From IMG/VR virus record IMGVR_UViG_3300020053_000862, positions 1-22,219 of that record: DNA of 22,219 nucleotides, one strand, 5' to 3'. The stretch is from a virus. Positions 9,028 through 17,980 of the stretch are shown one piece after another (positions within the stretch are counted from its first letter, which is position 1; every line of letters begins with the position of its first letter). A program made the position numbers and the translations under genes. The notes beneath the pieces were generated by a model. It made no database searches. It was not told where the DNA came from and worked only from the letters and a program-made list of their open reading frames with translations.

Positions 9028-9697
9028 AAAGAAAAAAGAATTAGTCAAAGCCATTAAAAACCCAAATAGGTATTTTAGATTGGACTTTGGTAGATATGGT
9101 GGCGAAGTTGCCATGGGGGAAATCACAGAAGCACAATTCAATTATTGGGAAGGCAAAGATGAAGAACTTGCAGAACACATTGCTGGTGCGGATTGGGGCG
9201 ATGATAGAGAAGACGATGGTACTCCACCAGAAGCAAAATTTACAAAACCCTTCTATGAATACGAAGACATCTGTCACACATCAGGACCTGAATTTTCAGA
9301 TGGACAATATATGACCATTACAGAAACAGACAAAGACGGTCATTCTATGCAGGACGAAGAAGGCAATTTTATAGAAGATCGTCAGATAGATATGAAAGAT
9401 TTCAAAAAACTAGGAATCAAAGTTAAATGCACAGCAGAACATAACTCAGGGTCGAAAAGTTGTAAGGACAAATATTATTTGTTTGGACAATATTTCAACA
9501 AAGGTGGTTGGTACACAGGCTCTATACAAACAGATCATAGAGGACTTGATTTAAAAAAAATAGCAATCAATTATGAAAATTGTGACGGATTTCAAGTGTT
9601 CAGTGAAATTGTTTACAATAATGAACATTATCATTTGGAAGAAGATTCAACAGGTAAAAGTTCAACATTCTATGTGATGGAAGGTGATGATGTCTAA
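9005..9697 (+). CDS. Acidic hypothetical protein (230 aa)
   Basis: The basic N-terminus (MIKKVSSKKKKELVKAIKN) is followed by RYFRLDFGRYGGEVAMGEI, a strand pair, and then a long acidic region (ADWGDDREDDG, later FYEYEDI and DEEGNF). A C-terminal beta-rich part contains KVKCTAEHNSGSKSCKDKYYLFG. I recognise no catalytic motif. Its charge layout (basic head, acidic body) matches the preceding gene, so the two may be functionally linked or distantly related. The stop overlaps the oxygenase start as TAATG. Confidence 0.72.
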   Translation: MIKKVSSKKKKELVKAIKNPNRYFRLDFGRYGGEVAMGEITEAQFNYWEGKDEELAEHIAGADWGDDREDDGTPPEAKFTKPFYEYEDICHTSGPEFSDGQYMTITETDKDGHSMQDEEGNFIEDRQIDMKDFKKLGIKVKCTAEHNSGSKSCKDKYYLFGQYFNKGGWYTGSIQTDHRGLDLKKIAINYENCDGFQVFSEIVYNNEHYHLEEDSTGKSSTFYVMEGDDV

Positions 9698-10284
9698 TGA
9701 TTAGACACGAAATATTTCCTGTGCCTATTTGGCAGTTTGAAAACAAAGATTCAAACACTGTAAAGCAAACACTGGTTCCACTATTCAAAGACATTGAAAA
9801 GAAAAATCCCAATCCCAATGTGAAATATACGGTGGATGGGTACACAAGTTTCGGACCCATCACAAATATTTTAGAGTTTGATGAGTGTAAAGATTTAAAA
9901 AACTTTATAATGGGTAATGTGGTAGAAGCAGTCAAGGACTTGGGGTTGGAAGGTTATTGTAATCTGACTGGTAGTTGGTTCAATATTAATAGAAAATACA
10001 GCAGTCATGGTGAACACAATCATATTCCAGATACAATCAGCGGGATATACTATGTACAAGCAGAAGAAGATGATGCTAGAATATCATTTCATGATCAAAA
10101 TAAAAACAGTAATTGGCCTTGGAAGATTGGTGTAATAGAAACATCTTACACAAAAAACATAATCAGTTTCAAACCACAAACAGGTAGATTATATCTTTTT
10201 CCTAGTTACATAACACACTCTGTCGAGCAACAACTTAAAGATAAAGAAAGGATAAGCATCAGTTTTAATGCTTATGTACAGTAA
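9697..10284 (+). CDS. TIGR02466-like 2OG-Fe(II) oxygenase (copy 1)
   Basis: The 195-residue protein starts with IFPVPIWQFEN, typical of the TIGR02466/phage 2OG oxygenases. Probable iron ligands lie in HGEHNH (H104, H107, H109) followed by SGIYYV, and at H174 in FPSYITHSV; R185 (KERISISFN) would hold 2-oxoglutarate. These enzymes are common in marine phages; their substrate is not known. A paralogue with the same layout lies at 14869. The start overlaps the previous stop. The next gene's ATG follows the stop directly, so this is within one operon. Confidence 0.84.
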   Translation: MIRHEIFPVPIWQFENKDSNTVKQTLVPLFKDIEKKNPNPNVKYTVDGYTSFGPITNILEFDECKDLKNFIMGNVVEAVKDLGLEGYCNLTGSWFNINRKYSSHGEHNHIPDTISGIYYVQAEEDDARISFHDQNKNSNWPWKIGVIETSYTKNIISFKPQTGRLYLFPSYITHSVEQQLKDKERISISFNAYVQ

Positions 10285-11405: not shown

Positions 11406-12287
11406 ATGAGCATTAGAGACGACATTATTTCAATCAAAAACGGGTTAGTGACATTGGGTGACGCAATCGAAAACCTAAGTGTACACGCATCTGCTGATGA
11501 TCAAGTTGTAAATTCTAGTAAATCTATCAATTTTGATGGATCAGAGAAAAACACAATTTACGGAAAAGGACTACAATGGAGTGGATTCGGCAATACAAAA
11601 ATGCTGAACTTCCAAAAAGATCCTGACAGATTGTGGAGTTCAAACACAATAGATCTTCACAGAGATGCTCATTATTCTATAGACAACACACTGGTTCTTT
11701 CAACTGAAGAATTAGGTCCTACAGTTAAGAAATCAAATCTTAGATCAGTTGGCATATTAAACGGATTAGCAGTAAACGGCGATATGAACATTGATCAATT
11801 TGTTTTCTGGAACTCAGGTATGAGTAGATTGGGAGTTGGTATAGAACAATCAAACGGACAGTTATCCGTGGCATCAAACTATGTTGAATTTATTGTTCAA
11901 CCCAATGATGTAGATGCCGAAGTAGGAACTTATACTACACACGACTTAAGAATTCAAACAGACAGCACAGACAGAATAGTTGTTAAAGCCAATGGCGATG
12001 TGACTATCGGAACACAAGGTGGCAATGACAAGAAAGTCAAAATACATGGCAAACTTGGTATTGGTATCAATAACATCAGAGATGATGCTAGTTTTGAAGT
12101 TGCTGGTCCTGTGAGAATGGATGGTAAACGATTCAGTGTTGCGGACGATGTTCCAACAATGGGTGTTCACGCAAAAGGCGATATTGTGTGGAATTCTAAT
12201 CCTGTCCCAGGCAGTGTCGTTGGATGGATCTGTGTTTTAACAGGTACACCAGGCGAATGGAAAAGTTTCGGAAATATTTCTCAGTAA
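11406..12287 (+). CDS. Tail-fibre-like structural protein
   Basis: The 293-residue protein is rich in Asn, Ser, Gly and Val in short strand-turn repeats, without cysteine clusters or enzymatic motifs. An N-terminal helix (DDIISIKNGLVTLGDAIENL) could trimerise. The middle has NGLAVNGDMNID and LGVGIEQSNG. Then come NGDVTIG and KLGIGINNIRDDASFEVAG, a pattern common in phage fibre shafts. The end, KGDIVWNSNPVPGSVVGWI...GTPGEWKSFG, resembles the C-terminal modules of marine phage fibres. It should be a trimeric virion fibre or its tip. A late-like octamer lies just upstream. The last 31 bases overlap the next gene. Confidence 0.78.
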   Translation: MSIRDDIISIKNGLVTLGDAIENLSVHASADDQVVNSSKSINFDGSEKNTIYGKGLQWSGFGNTKMLNFQKDPDRLWSSNTIDLHRDAHYSIDNTLVLSTEELGPTVKKSNLRSVGILNGLAVNGDMNIDQFVFWNSGMSRLGVGIEQSNGQLSVASNYVEFIVQPNDVDAEVGTYTTHDLRIQTDSTDRIVVKANGDVTIGTQGGNDKKVKIHGKLGIGINNIRDDASFEVAGPVRMDGKRFSVADDVPTMGVHAKGDIVWNSNPVPGSVVGWICVLTGTPGEWKSFGNISQ

Positions 12288-14159: not shown

Positions 14160-14872
14160 TGATCAACTACATTGTCTGTCTTAAATGGGGAAACAAGTAT
14201 GGTCCAGAGTATGTGAATACACTGGAACAAATGGTGCGTAGATATTGTACACTGCCATTTGAATTTGTTTGCTTCACAGAAAATCCCACAGGACTCAATC
14301 ATACAGTTAAAGTGATGCCACTGCCAACATCTTATGGAGTTAATGGTTGGTGGCACAAACCTTTACTGTTTAATCCCAGTCTTCCTCTACAAGATCCACA
14401 GGGCACAATTTTGTACATAGATTTAGATGTTATTATTTTTAGAAGTATAGATAATCTATTCACATACAAACCAGGTGAGTTTTGTGTGATTAGAGATTTT
14501 AATAGATGTAACAATCCTGCCTGGAATAAATTTAACAGCAGTGTGGTACGATGGAACATTGGACAGCATCCACAAATTTATCGAGATTTTATAAAAGACC
14601 CATCTAGTCCTGTGCGTAGATTTCATGGAGATCAGGATTGGTTATTTGCTCAAGTGAAAAGAGATTTTAGTTTTTGGCCCGACGAATGGATACAGAGTTA
14701 CAAATGGGAAATGCGAGGAAAGCCTCCCATGGTGCGTAATAAAGACGGCATTAAAGATTTTGTCTCTCCAGGCGTGCCTAAAATACATCCTGAAACATCT
14801 ATTGCTGTGTTTCACGGTGACCCTCAACCTAAACATTGCCAGGATCCCTGGTGTAAGGAGAATTGGAAATGA
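14159..14872 (+). CDS. GT-A-fold glycosyltransferase (GT8-like)
   Basis: The 237-residue protein begins with strand INYIVCLKWGNKYG and helix VNTLEQMVRRY, then the nucleotide-sugar region. The metal-binding DxD is DLD (88-90) in ILYIDLDVIIF. FNSSVVRW (125-132), HGDQDWLF (156-163) and the terminal FHGDPQPKH (218-226) are typical acceptor and metal positions of GT8/GT32-like enzymes. It should transfer a sugar to a glycan, protein or DNA base; the acceptor is unknown. No signal peptide is seen, so it is cytoplasmic. It is coupled to queD (TAATG) and to the next oxygenase (ATGA). Confidence 0.85.
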   Translation: MINYIVCLKWGNKYGPEYVNTLEQMVRRYCTLPFEFVCFTENPTGLNHTVKVMPLPTSYGVNGWWHKPLLFNPSLPLQDPQGTILYIDLDVIIFRSIDNLFTYKPGEFCVIRDFNRCNNPAWNKFNSSVVRWNIGQHPQIYRDFIKDPSSPVRRFHGDQDWLFAQVKRDFSFWPDEWIQSYKWEMRGKPPMVRNKDGIKDFVSPGVPKIHPETSIAVFHGDPQPKHCQDPWCKENWK

Positions 14873-15444
14873 ACTACAACATAGCAAATATGTTCGCAAC
14901 ACCTGTGCTACGATTCGATTTTAAAGAGCACAAAGATAATAAAAAATTATTGGAATTGATAGAAGTATGGAAAACCAAACCGCACGGGCTAGTGAGTGGT
15001 GCTGAAAGCAGTTATTTGAAAGGTGATCATCACATATTAGATCACGAAGATGTAAAAGATTTAAAAGCAGACTTCCAAAAAGCCGTTGATGTGTATTGTG
15101 ATAAAGTTGGATTACCAAACAATATAAAAATATCAATGAGTTGGTTTAACAAGTTAGGAAAAGGTCAAAGTGTTCAAATGCACAGACACGAAGTAAGTAT
15201 TGTGAGTGCGGCATATTATCCAAAAGTGGATCAAGGCAGTGTGGGATTAAATTTTATTTCTCCTTTACAACCTTATAGAATGCACGAACTTTTTTCTAAA
15301 AACACAGAATACAACAATAAAAGTGTGGAAGTACCTTGCGAACAAGGAATATTGTATCTTTTCCCTTCATGGTTAGAACATTTTTCTAATCCTAATCAAA
15401 CTGATGAAAGAATAACTATCAGTTTTAACACAATGTACGTTTGA
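14869..15444 (+). CDS. TIGR02466-like 2OG-Fe(II) oxygenase (copy 2)
   Basis: 191 residues from ATG 14869, chosen because AAGGAG (14855-14860) lies 8 bases upstream. The in-frame TTG at 14863 is too close to it. The layout matches the protein at 9697: NMFATPVLRF at the start; HRH (105-107) for the first iron ligands; GILYLFPSWLEHFS with H171; and DERITISFN with R181. The two share the FPS...H and RI(T/S)ISFN ends but differ elsewhere, so they are old paralogues. The substrate is unknown; its place after a glycosyltransferase would allow a glycan or nucleotide substrate, but that is speculative. The start overlaps the previous stop (ATGA). Confidence 0.84.
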   Translation: MNYNIANMFATPVLRFDFKEHKDNKKLLELIEVWKTKPHGLVSGAESSYLKGDHHILDHEDVKDLKADFQKAVDVYCDKVGLPNNIKISMSWFNKLGKGQSVQMHRHEVSIVSAAYYPKVDQGSVGLNFISPLQPYRMHELFSKNTEYNNKSVEVPCEQGILYLFPSWLEHFSNPNQTDERITISFNTMYV

Positions 15445-15474: not shown

Positions 15475-16521
15475 ATGATTAGACGTATTGGATTCTGCTG
15501 TCAATGGTTCCACCATGATAGATCTCTTAAGAAAAAACAACTAGAAGAAATAGAAAGACCAATGAACACACGTTCAACCACAGTGCGTTGGTTAAATGAA
15601 CACAAAGCAGATGCTGAAGAAAAATTGGCATTTGTGTTCAAACACAACATTGACGGTATTAAAAATTTAATTTTAAAAGTTTCAACACTGCCAGAGAGTA
15701 GACGTATGTGCAGAATTTCATCTCCCATACTGCCTGTGGCAACAGAAAATACCTGGAGATATTATTGGGACAAACCAGATGTTATACAATATTGTGAAAA
15801 ACATTTTGCTGAAGCAGGTGACTTGGCAAGAAAACACAACGTGAAGATCAGTTTTCATCCAGGACAATTCACAGTGTTAGCCAGCGACAATGAAGACATT
15901 GTGGAAAGAAGCATAGACGAATTTGAATATCATGTGCGTATGGCACGTTGGATGGGCTTTGGTAAGTCTTTCCAAGATGGCTGTAAAATTAACGTACACA
16001 TATCCGGCAGACAAGGACCTGAAGGTATCATTAAAGCAATACCAAGAATGTCTCCAGAAGCACGTAACCTACTCACAATAGAAAACGATGAAATGGGTTG
16101 GGGTTTAGAATCCAGTTTAGAATTAGAAAAACACTGTGCATTAGTTTTAGATATACATCACCATTGGGTGAGAACAGGTGAATACATTCAAGCCACAGAC
16201 GATAGAGTGAAAAGAGTTGTGGACTCATGGCGTGGTGTCAGACCAACCATGCACTATTCTTACAGCAGAGATGAATGGTTAGCACCTGCATATCCTAATG
16301 CAGAAGATATGCACAAAGAAATTCATGATATGCAGACACTGTTGGACAAAGGTTGTAAAAAACAAAAATTACGAGCTCACAGCGAACTGTTGCCCAATCG
16401 TGCTGTGAATGAATGGGCACTGTCATTTTTACCTCAATTGGACATACAAGTAGAAGCCAAAGCGAAGAATCTTGCCGCAGAGCAACTGCACAATCAGGCT
16501 GTGGAACTTGGTTTAGTGTAG
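15475..16521 (+). CDS. uvdE: UV damage endonuclease (UvdE/UvsE)
   Basis: The 348-residue protein is a TIM-barrel endonuclease that nicks DNA 5' of UV photoproducts, starting alternative excision repair. The family metal site is visible in order: FHPGQF (127-132), NVHISG (H175), ENDE (203-206), DIHHH (226-230), MHYS (H260) and HSELLP near 307. The N-terminus (MIRRIGFCCQWF) also fits UvdE. The C-terminal ~30 residues (AKAKNLAAEQLHNQ) are an extra helix. For a phage of sunlit water this protects the genome. It has its own perfect promoter with no leader, so expression is probably early and independent of upstream genes. Its stop is followed directly by a late-like octamer for the next gene. Confidence 0.95.
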   Translation: MIRRIGFCCQWFHHDRSLKKKQLEEIERPMNTRSTTVRWLNEHKADAEEKLAFVFKHNIDGIKNLILKVSTLPESRRMCRISSPILPVATENTWRYYWDKPDVIQYCEKHFAEAGDLARKHNVKISFHPGQFTVLASDNEDIVERSIDEFEYHVRMARWMGFGKSFQDGCKINVHISGRQGPEGIIKAIPRMSPEARNLLTIENDEMGWGLESSLELEKHCALVLDIHHHWVRTGEYIQATDDRVKRVVDSWRGVRPTMHYSYSRDEWLAPAYPNAEDMHKEIHDMQTLLDKGCKKQKLRAHSELLPNRAVNEWALSFLPQLDIQVEAKAKNLAAEQLHNQAVELGLV

Positions 16522-16522
16522 C

Positions 16523-16530
16523 GATAAATA
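16523..16530 (+). promoter_or_regulatory. T4-late-like promoter octamer GATAAATA
   Basis: It lies 5 bases before ATG 16536, placing the predicted start point at the ATG. It is identical to the octamer before the tail-fibre gene at 11406. Confidence 0.55.
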
Positions 16531-16535
16531 TCTAC

Positions 16536-17090
16536 ATGAAACTAGAACAGATTACAGAATCAAAAAAGAATAGAGAATCCAAATTAGAAGCAGTGAAACT
16601 GCCTTACAAAATGTCAGAACTTTCACCAGTGCTGTCTGAAGAAAATATAGATTATCATTACAATGTGCTGACCAAAGCATATGTGAGAAGATACAACGAT
16701 GGTGAAGGTGATCCAGATTTTAACTATGGTGGAGCAAAACTTCACAATATGTTTTGGAGTCAACTACAAGCACCTCGTCCAGGCAACAAACCCACAGGTG
16801 ATATAAAAAATTTAATAGAAGCAACTCACAAGTCATTTGAAGACTTCAAAAAAGAATTGATAAGAACTGCCATGACCATACAAGGTTCTGGTTGGGTGTA
16901 CATTGCCAAAAACGGTTCTATCAAAACCACACCAAATCAATCATACAAAACCGACATATTGATGCCAATTGATATGTGGGAACATTCATTTTCGGATTAT
17001 GTTCCTGCCAAGGATGCCAAGAAGAAATATCTTGAAGGCATTATGAGAATAATTAATTGGGAGTCAATCAATTTAAGATTGCAATCTTAA
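16536..17090 (+). CDS. Mn/Fe superoxide dismutase-like protein
   Basis: 184 residues from ATG 16536; the open frame extends upstream into uvdE, but a late-like promoter at 16523 fixes the start. The protein aligns along the whole Fe/Mn-SOD fold: KLPYKMSELSPVLSEENIDYHY, LHNMFWSQLQAP, PTGDIKNLIEATHKSFEDFK, IQGSGWVYI, PIDMWEHSF and YLEGIMRIINWESI. All four metal ligands are present (H41, H70, D146, H150), as are E149 and the gateway Tyr (Y49). G66 with Q135 (PNQ) matches the Mn-type arrangement rather than the Fe-type. The second-shell His of E. coli SOD is Leu45, and the Tyr after WEH is Ser153, so activity could be altered. A 20-residue charged N-terminal extension is unusual. It may be a true SOD or a structural protein that keeps the fold. 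Confidence 0.88.
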   Translation: MKLEQITESKKNRESKLEAVKLPYKMSELSPVLSEENIDYHYNVLTKAYVRRYNDGEGDPDFNYGGAKLHNMFWSQLQAPRPGNKPTGDIKNLIEATHKSFEDFKKELIRTAMTIQGSGWVYIAKNGSIKTTPNQSYKTDILMPIDMWEHSFSDYVPAKDAKKKYLEGIMRIINWESINLRLQS

Positions 17091-17105: not shown

Positions 17106-17279
17106 ATGATAAATCAAATCCAAAAATGGATCAATGCTAGAATCAAAGAAAGAACAACCTTAGACGGTGCTCTTTTAATTGCGGCTGGCGTTTCATTTTT
17201 AATTTTCAAACCAATCGCGGCAATTGTGGCCTACGCGGCAATTGTATACGGTGCTTGGACAATTTGGAAGTCAGAGTAA
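17106..17279 (+). CDS. 57-residue membrane protein
   Basis: The start is fixed by AAGGAG just upstream of ATG 17106. The N-terminal 20 residues are polar and amphipathic (MINQIQKWINARIKERTTLD). Residues 21-53 are hydrophobic and Ala/Ile/Val-rich (GALLIAAGVSFLIF, a Lys-Pro break, IAAIVAYAAIVYGAWTIW), giving two short membrane helices or a hairpin. I recognise no family with a known function. It sits 15 bases after the SOD-like stop and is probably in the same late transcript. Its stop abuts the convergent minus-strand gene exactly. Confidence 0.72.
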   Translation: MINQIQKWINARIKERTTLDGALLIAAGVSFLIFKPIAAIVAYAAIVYGAWTIWKSE

Positions 17280-17629: not shown

Positions 17630-17980
17630 ATGCCCATTTTGACACTTACTGCTTCAGCACAAAATAAAGTTAAAGATTTGTGTAGTAGCAACAGCAAATA
17701 TGCTGTAAGATTGGGTATTAGAGGAGGTGGCTGTGCTGGTTTCTCCTATGATTGGGGATTTGCTGACGAGAATGAAATTGAGTCAGGAGATGAAATTATA
17801 GAAGTAGAAGGCGGCAAACTAGTGATAGACAGTCACAGTGTGATGTACTTGTTTGGAACTGAAATCGATTATGTGAATGAAGTATTTGGTTCACAATTTG
17901 AGATACACAATCCCAACACCAAAAGTGCTTGTGGTTGTGGCGAAAGCATTCAGTTTGATATGGATAGGATAAATGGCTAA
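17630..17980 (+). CDS. A-type iron-sulfur carrier (IscA/HesB/ErpA-like)
   Basis: The 116-residue protein has the three conserved cysteines of A-type carriers: C35 in RGGGCAGFSYDWGF, and C101 and C103 in SACGCGESI. The usual ILTLTASAQNKVKDL start and DSHSVMYLFGTEIDYV middle are also present, and the length is that of the family (about 107-120). Such proteins receive and pass on [2Fe-2S] or [4Fe-4S] clusters. In marine T4-like phages they occur near tail genes, which suggests cluster loading of a virion or replication protein; that partner is not shown here. The late-like octamer and the 8-base overlap with the fibre gene tie it to the structural transcript. Confidence 0.93.
   Translation: MPILTLTASAQNKVKDLCSSNSKYAVRLGIRGGGCAGFSYDWGFADENEIESGDEIIEVEGGKLVIDSHSVMYLFGTEIDYVNEVFGSQFEIHNPNTKSACGCGESIQFDMDRING

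Follow-up and report, generated by a model that had tools for sequence, protein, structure and literature searches.

A phage-clade superoxide dismutase with a predicted cleavable capsid tag in a large aquatic bacterial virus

Introduction

Phage-encoded superoxide dismutases (SODs) are commonly interpreted as a metabolic aid to the infected cell. A gene of this type occupies positions 16536..17090 on the plus strand of a 22,219-nucleotide stretch of DNA (hereafter the window) from a large aquatic bacterial virus, and it raises the question whether its 184-residue product works in the host cell or travels in the virion. An earlier sequence-only reading had the coordinates, strand and translation of the ORF right, as checked on the sequence, and offered both destinations: a protein that shields the host late in infection, or a virion component in which the SOD fold was retained. 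The evidence assembled here favours the virion side, by way of a putative capsid-targeting tag that the reading had not seen.

Results

Genomic Context

Head genes are absent from the 22-kb window, which is a fragment, and no near DNA match to it was found in the phage collection searched. Immediately upstream of the SOD gene lies a gene for a UV-damage endonuclease of the UvdE type (15475..16521, plus strand; PF03851, E = 2.9e-36; phrog_8420). Immediately downstream, a small ORF (17106..17279, plus strand) encodes an untyped, hydrophobic protein of 57 aa with no Pfam match; it is preceded by an AAGGAG ribosome site, which the SOD gene lacks. Further downstream, an Fe-S cluster biosynthesis protein of the HesB/IscA type is encoded (17630..17980, plus strand; PF01521, E = 1.4e-19). 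The gene had been placed next to fibre genes, which does not hold for these immediate neighbours: a tail-fibre-like ORF (11406-12287) lies further away, as does a very long ORF of structural appearance (from 17973). A putative 2OG-Fe(II) oxygenase gene (PF13759) occurs twice in the window (9697-10284 and 14863-15444), which also contains QueD-like and Fe-S biogenesis genes.

Fold and Active Site

Both SOD domains are recognized by Pfam: Sod_Fe_C (PF02777) with E = 1.8e-18 and 66.9 bits (cut-off 20.9), and Sod_Fe_N (PF00081) with E = 1.2e-8 and 35.8 bits (cut-off 27). A phmmer search matched 155 PDB sequences, the best being E. coli FeSOD (E = 4e-20). PHROGs holds no family for the protein, and the NCBIfam equivalog cut-offs for E. 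coli-type SodA/SodB are missed (74.9 bits versus 348 and 41.3 versus 363). The AlphaFold model, with 32 relatives as input, reaches a pLDDT of 92.1 and a pTM of 0.88, comprises the alpha-hairpin and the alpha/beta C-terminal fold, and matches solved SODs with Z ~22 and an rmsd of 1.6-1.8 Å over 163-167 residues (Foldseek, VIA-align). At the fold level, this superposition over ~165 residues does not contradict the sequence-only reading, against which a structure keeping the four ligands apart would have counted; identity to E. coli SodB is 34% over 165 structurally aligned residues. At residues 1-5 the pLDDT falls below 50, which would suit a removable leader.

Active-site positions were counted in 37 non-redundant phage sequences and compared with 64 cellular ones; all codons given here lie on the plus strand. 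The metal ligands His41 (human His26; 16656..16658), His70 (human His74; 16743..16745), Asp146 (human Asp159; 16971..16973) and His150, the last encoded together with the dimer-bridge Glu149 at 16980..16985, are present in 37/37 phage sequences, as are Glu149 itself, the gateway Tyr49 (human Tyr34; 16680..16682) and Trp148. H41, H70, D146, H150, E149 and Y49 are also invariant in a separate alignment of 32 relatives. The phage protein shares with the SodFM family (E. coli SodB and SodA, human MnSOD) the fold, the four metal ligands, the gateway Tyr34, the Glu162 bridge and the Gly/Gln Mn-type pair. The ligands, the bridging Glu and the gateway Tyr had been identified correctly; the description as full-length, by contrast, overlooked a deletion in the alpha-hairpin. 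Its shortened tip (16683..16742) separates Tyr34 from the second ligand His by 20 intervening residues. This spacing is 19-20 residues in all 37 phage sequences, whereas the 64 cellular sequences have 26-53, mostly ~40.

The Mn-type pair Gly66/Gln135 is present as described. Gln135 (16938..16940), the C-terminal water-coordinating residue, is Gln in 35/37 and His in 2/37 phage sequences. The two second-shell changes noted at Leu45 and Ser153 are real as well and turn out to be the rule across the family. Leu45 (16668..16670), which replaces the gateway His30, is Leu in 37/37, and Ser153 (16992..16994), which replaces Tyr166 of human MnSOD, is Met, Ser, Thr or Val in 37/37 and Tyr in 0/37, so that the canonical His30-Tyr166 pair is absent throughout. 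Two residues before Asp146, at the XD-2 position, stands Pro144 (Pro in 35/37). Together with the short hairpin, these replacements set the phage SOD apart from the SodFM enzymes, as do its basic pI, its separate clade and the proposed N-terminal propeptide.

His30 and Tyr166 of human MnSOD work in concert, and the double mutant H30N/Y166F loses little beyond the single mutants (PMC9208312). The joint loss of both residues is therefore coherent. The double mutant retains a k1 of ~0.1 versus 1.5, whereas H30V is nearly dead (k1 ~0.005 versus 1.5, ~300-fold slower; PMC9208312), so the Leu at position 30 makes the catalytic rate uncertain. As to the metal, a C-terminal water-binding Gln mostly pairs with Mn preference (21/27 natural enzymes; PMC10172142), but that work does not discuss Pro at XD-2, and the metal therefore cannot be called. 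Given the short hairpin and the joint loss of His30 and Tyr166, SOD activity of the phage enzyme is likely but not assured. To say that the protein merely kept the fold would nonetheless be too weak, as the conservation of the metal ligands and the gateway Tyr points to retained chemistry.

A Phage-Only Clade

In the tree, 37/37 phage SODs fall on one side of a branch with support 99/91 and a long stem. The SODs of jumbo phage PA5oct and Vibrio phage 2.275.O lie inside this group, their own placement being unsure (long branches), and both have the short hairpin, Leu30 and a non-Tyr residue at position 166. By major capsid protein, the nearest cultured relatives are the PA5oct-like phages (70%) and Vibrio phage 2.275.O (68%), and both encode an SOD of this clade. 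Known counterparts are the SODs of the jumbo phages PA5oct/MIJ3 and of Vibrio phage 2.275.O, of which the PA5oct and 2.275.O proteins are only ~36% identical, and an uncultured Caudovirales "superoxide dismutase" (BFVD A0A6J5L7W0) with 46% identity. The PA5oct and 2.275.O entries are labelled hypothetical or SOD in the records, and capsid targeting is unmentioned. Two overlapping scans returned 71 and 80 viral contigs, and a single cellular scan gave no close relative, the best full-length match having 33% identity. Both the fold and the phage-only clade are firm.

Many SODs of Patescibacteria (L199, L201-L268) also lack His30 and Tyr166, and loss of the pair was consequently not taken as family-defining; the spacing between the first ligand His and Tyr34 looks one residue shorter in them. 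An origin from Patescibacteria, suggested by this common loss, finds no support, given their normal-length hairpins and their position outside the phage group in the tree. This cellular sample is biased by the DMWEHSF search pattern with which it was drawn. Several short or odd SOD-bearing records among the phage collection matches (H13-H27) look like bacterial contamination.

Late-Promoter-like Element

An octamer resembling T4-type late promoters, GATAAATA (16523..16530, plus strand), ends 5 nt (TCTAC) before the ATG. Within the window itself, ATAAATA is no commoner than chance (four found versus 6.5 expected). Across seven related contigs (G001, G002, G003, G004, G005, G013 and G014), starts are preceded by xATAAATA/xCTAAATA about ten-fold more often than expected, the gap peaking sharply at exactly 5 nt, and an element of the GATAAATA type precedes the SOD gene in most relatives. 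The observation of this element abutting the ATG is thereby extended to a real feature of the related contigs, and the suggestion of late expression gains support from it. A second class of elements lies ~17-30 nt upstream of starts, while the 5-nt class covers portal, prohead-core and tail-like genes, tagged proteins and the SOD. The T4 late-promoter element sits near -13 to -6. With this geometry and a gap of 5 nt, the first transcribed base would be the A of the ATG and the message would be leaderless; the gap before the SOD gene contains no ribosome site.

A Proposed N-Terminal Tag

The N-terminal extension had been described as charged. It is, but it is not merely so: its form is that of a protease-cleaved capsid tag. 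The proposed capsid-targeting propeptide MKLEQITE (16536..16559, plus strand) has a predicted prohead-protease cut after Glu8, before Ser9 (MKLEQITE|SKK). In T4, gp21 cuts head proteins after L/I-x-E, propeptides measure 10-19 residues, and the first ten residues of IPIII suffice to target foreign proteins into the head (PMC9026906). The propeptide counts eight residues in the window SOD and 8-15 in most relatives. The extension differs in sequence among 62 distinct relatives yet retains the glutamate site, [LI]xE being present in 56/62 versus 30.4 expected from shuffled extensions, a figure that is descriptive as the rows are related. The motif is common by chance, with half of the shuffled extensions containing one. 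Three main forms of the tag occur: MK(L/Y)xQITE|S/A, (D)IRKYIxLFE|AK and LKKLAGIxE.

T4 IPI, IPII, IPIII and Alt share several features with the SOD: a short N-terminal propeptide ending in L/I-x-E, a basic mature protein, membership of a variable gene set and a late-type promoter. The layout is alike, with no residue-by-residue alignment between the tags (IPII/IPIII: MKTYQEFIAE|A). The cargo differs: that of T4 includes no antioxidant enzyme and consists of an anti-restriction protein, an ADP-ribosyltransferase and proteins whose role is unsettled. The predicted mature window SOD of 176 residues has a calculated pI of 9.1 (family-core median 8.9), and tagged proteins in general are more basic than the rest, as are the T4 internal proteins. 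The homologue of Vibrio phage 2.275.O (L115 3968-4537) has no N-terminal tag. Its C-terminus, VNIRHLINFISK, is similar to the tag forms and might act from that end.

Tags in Other Proteins of These Phages

Each SOD tag form recurs in other proteins of the same phages, namely in prohead core genes and in a cluster of small, basic proteins that surrounds the SOD gene. A T4-type (gp21) prohead protease is encoded in the long related contigs G001, G013 and G014; head genes were sought in G002-G005, which are fragments, and none were found. In G001, the small protein encoded between the portal and protease genes (the gp67/68 slot) begins MRYKELKEA and gp21 begins MVQLITEAL. The slot proteins of G014 and PA5oct begin MKLFEFFEAA and MKINDIITEG, and their gp22 C-termini contain LKRLAGL and LRRLAGI, respectively. 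These scaffold C-termini, along with IKRLAGL, resemble the LKKLAGI form of the SOD tags. The G001 scaffold (113674-114765) ends in KRLAGL, and LKxLAGI opens other proteins (e.g., G002 38989-39198) as well as the SODs of L057, L062 and L068; the motif may bind the prohead core. Furthermore, small tagged proteins (SEVASAGATSAGN, TEDATAGSTASGN) repeat AEAASAGATGAGN, the segment behind the predicted cut of the major capsid protein. In several of them this segment, ASAGATxAGN, stands directly after the predicted cut. It is found at G001 114769-115947, G002 35165-35395, G005 22350-22601 and in PA5oct EST35_0203, and is perhaps a contact to the capsid lattice. EST35_0203, a structural protein detected by MS, combines an LRLAGV tag with a version of the capsid segment.

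With a first, strict tag pattern, [LI][LIVFTAGHM]E[ASTKN]K, no excess appeared genome-wide. A broader pattern gave one, occurring at 3.6-7.3 times the chance rate in five contigs and more weakly in G013 and G014 (1.6 and 2.3 times). Tagged genes made up 20/64 of the genes near the SOD versus 18/694 elsewhere in four contigs, a statistic that is partly circular because the pattern was written after the SOD neighbours had been seen; the head-gene, capsid-segment and PA5oct matches depend less on it. Clusters of tagged small genes lie at G001 228833-237371, G002 33940-40665, G003 113249-120561, G004 62282-68796 and G005 20800-33160. Their products are often basic, mostly belong to no known family and are candidate internal head proteins. 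In the window and in its close relative G002, the SOD gene lies outside the tagged cluster. In the locus L047 (3300-4337), the SOD is fused between two modules of a tagged basic protein known from G002 35947-36261 (flanks matching at 66% over 35 residues and 59% over 98 columns, E = 2.8e-35).

The PA5oct SOD homologue, EST35_0261, is tagged as well and begins MNDSIKKYISIAE|AASS, of the IKKYISIAE|AA form. It is marked ESI-MS/MS. Ribonucleotide reductase, DNA ligase and FtsH belong to the same set, and detection therefore does not prove a virion location. Tagged proteins are weakly over-represented in this set (8/20 versus 83/436 untagged, p = 0.029).

Discussion

What, then, is the SOD for? In our view it is probably a late-made, head-packaged and phage-adapted SOD with a cleaved capsid tag, which we regard as the best explanation of the locus. 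The protein would be made late in infection as cargo of the virus head, MKLEQITE would act as a capsid-targeting propeptide that brings it into the prohead core, and a T4 gp21-type prohead protease would cut after Glu8, leaving the basic 176-residue enzyme shut in with the DNA. Superoxide could then be removed near the phage genome, either in the virion or on entry into the next host together with the DNA. The capsid route is well supported by sequence patterns but unproven, and we infer packaging, cleavage, ejection, enzyme activity and its target. The fuller scheme strikes us as an even call: an active SOD is packed in the capsid, loses its tag at head maturation and is injected with the genome, providing an antioxidant before any phage gene is expressed, as one cargo of a modular tagging system that serves many proteins in this jumbo-phage group.

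The most serious competitor is an ordinary late cytoplasmic SOD, an auxiliary metabolic gene whose product protects the infected cell and the new phage DNA and whose extension is a dispensable leader. The intact metal site, the surrounding metabolic genes (UvdE, QueD-like, 2OG oxygenases, Fe-S biogenesis), the location outside the tagged cluster in the window and G002, and the untagged 2.275.O homologue would all agree with it. Against a dispensable leader speak an L/I-x-E site that is kept across deep divergence while the rest of the extension changes, extension forms common to prohead-core proteins, and a relative that has, in place of the extension, a fused tagged basic protein; we consider this account rather unlikely, albeit worth serious attention. 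A head protein that retains the SOD fold and metal site and no useful dismutase activity, being a basic, DNA-associated protein with a metal for stability or another reaction, appears improbable. Loss of His30 and Tyr166, the shortened hairpin, Pro at the metal-tuning XD-2 position, the basic pI and the ~300-fold slower k1 of human H30V speak in its favour. Yet the four ligands and the equivalents of Tyr34, Gln143, Trp161 and Glu162 are kept in nearly all members, human H30N/Y166F retains part of its k1, and sampled Patescibacteria SODs lack the same pair. A host gene acquired recently, or a mis-sorted contig of bacterial DNA, would be in line with the "phage" SOD records that look contaminated; it is ruled out, to our minds with hardly any residual probability, by the cellular scan (in that one scan, no relative exceeded 33% identity across most of the protein) and the single phage group in the tree, to which the 71 and 80 viral contigs of the overlapping scans can be added.

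Phage SODs have already been annotated, and it is their capsid routing that appears to be new. The literature searched, which did not include the PA5oct omics paper, contained no report of a virion SOD or of an SOD in PA5oct-like phages. If head packaging of the SOD is true, oxidative stress would be relevant to the particle or to the very start of infection, and the short list of phage enzymes known to be injected would gain an antioxidant one. The same tags on dozens of uncharacterised proteins in these genomes would, moreover, amount to a sequence rule that predicts head cargo, open to a direct check by virion proteomics of the cultured relatives PA5oct, Paride and Vibrio phage 2.275.O.
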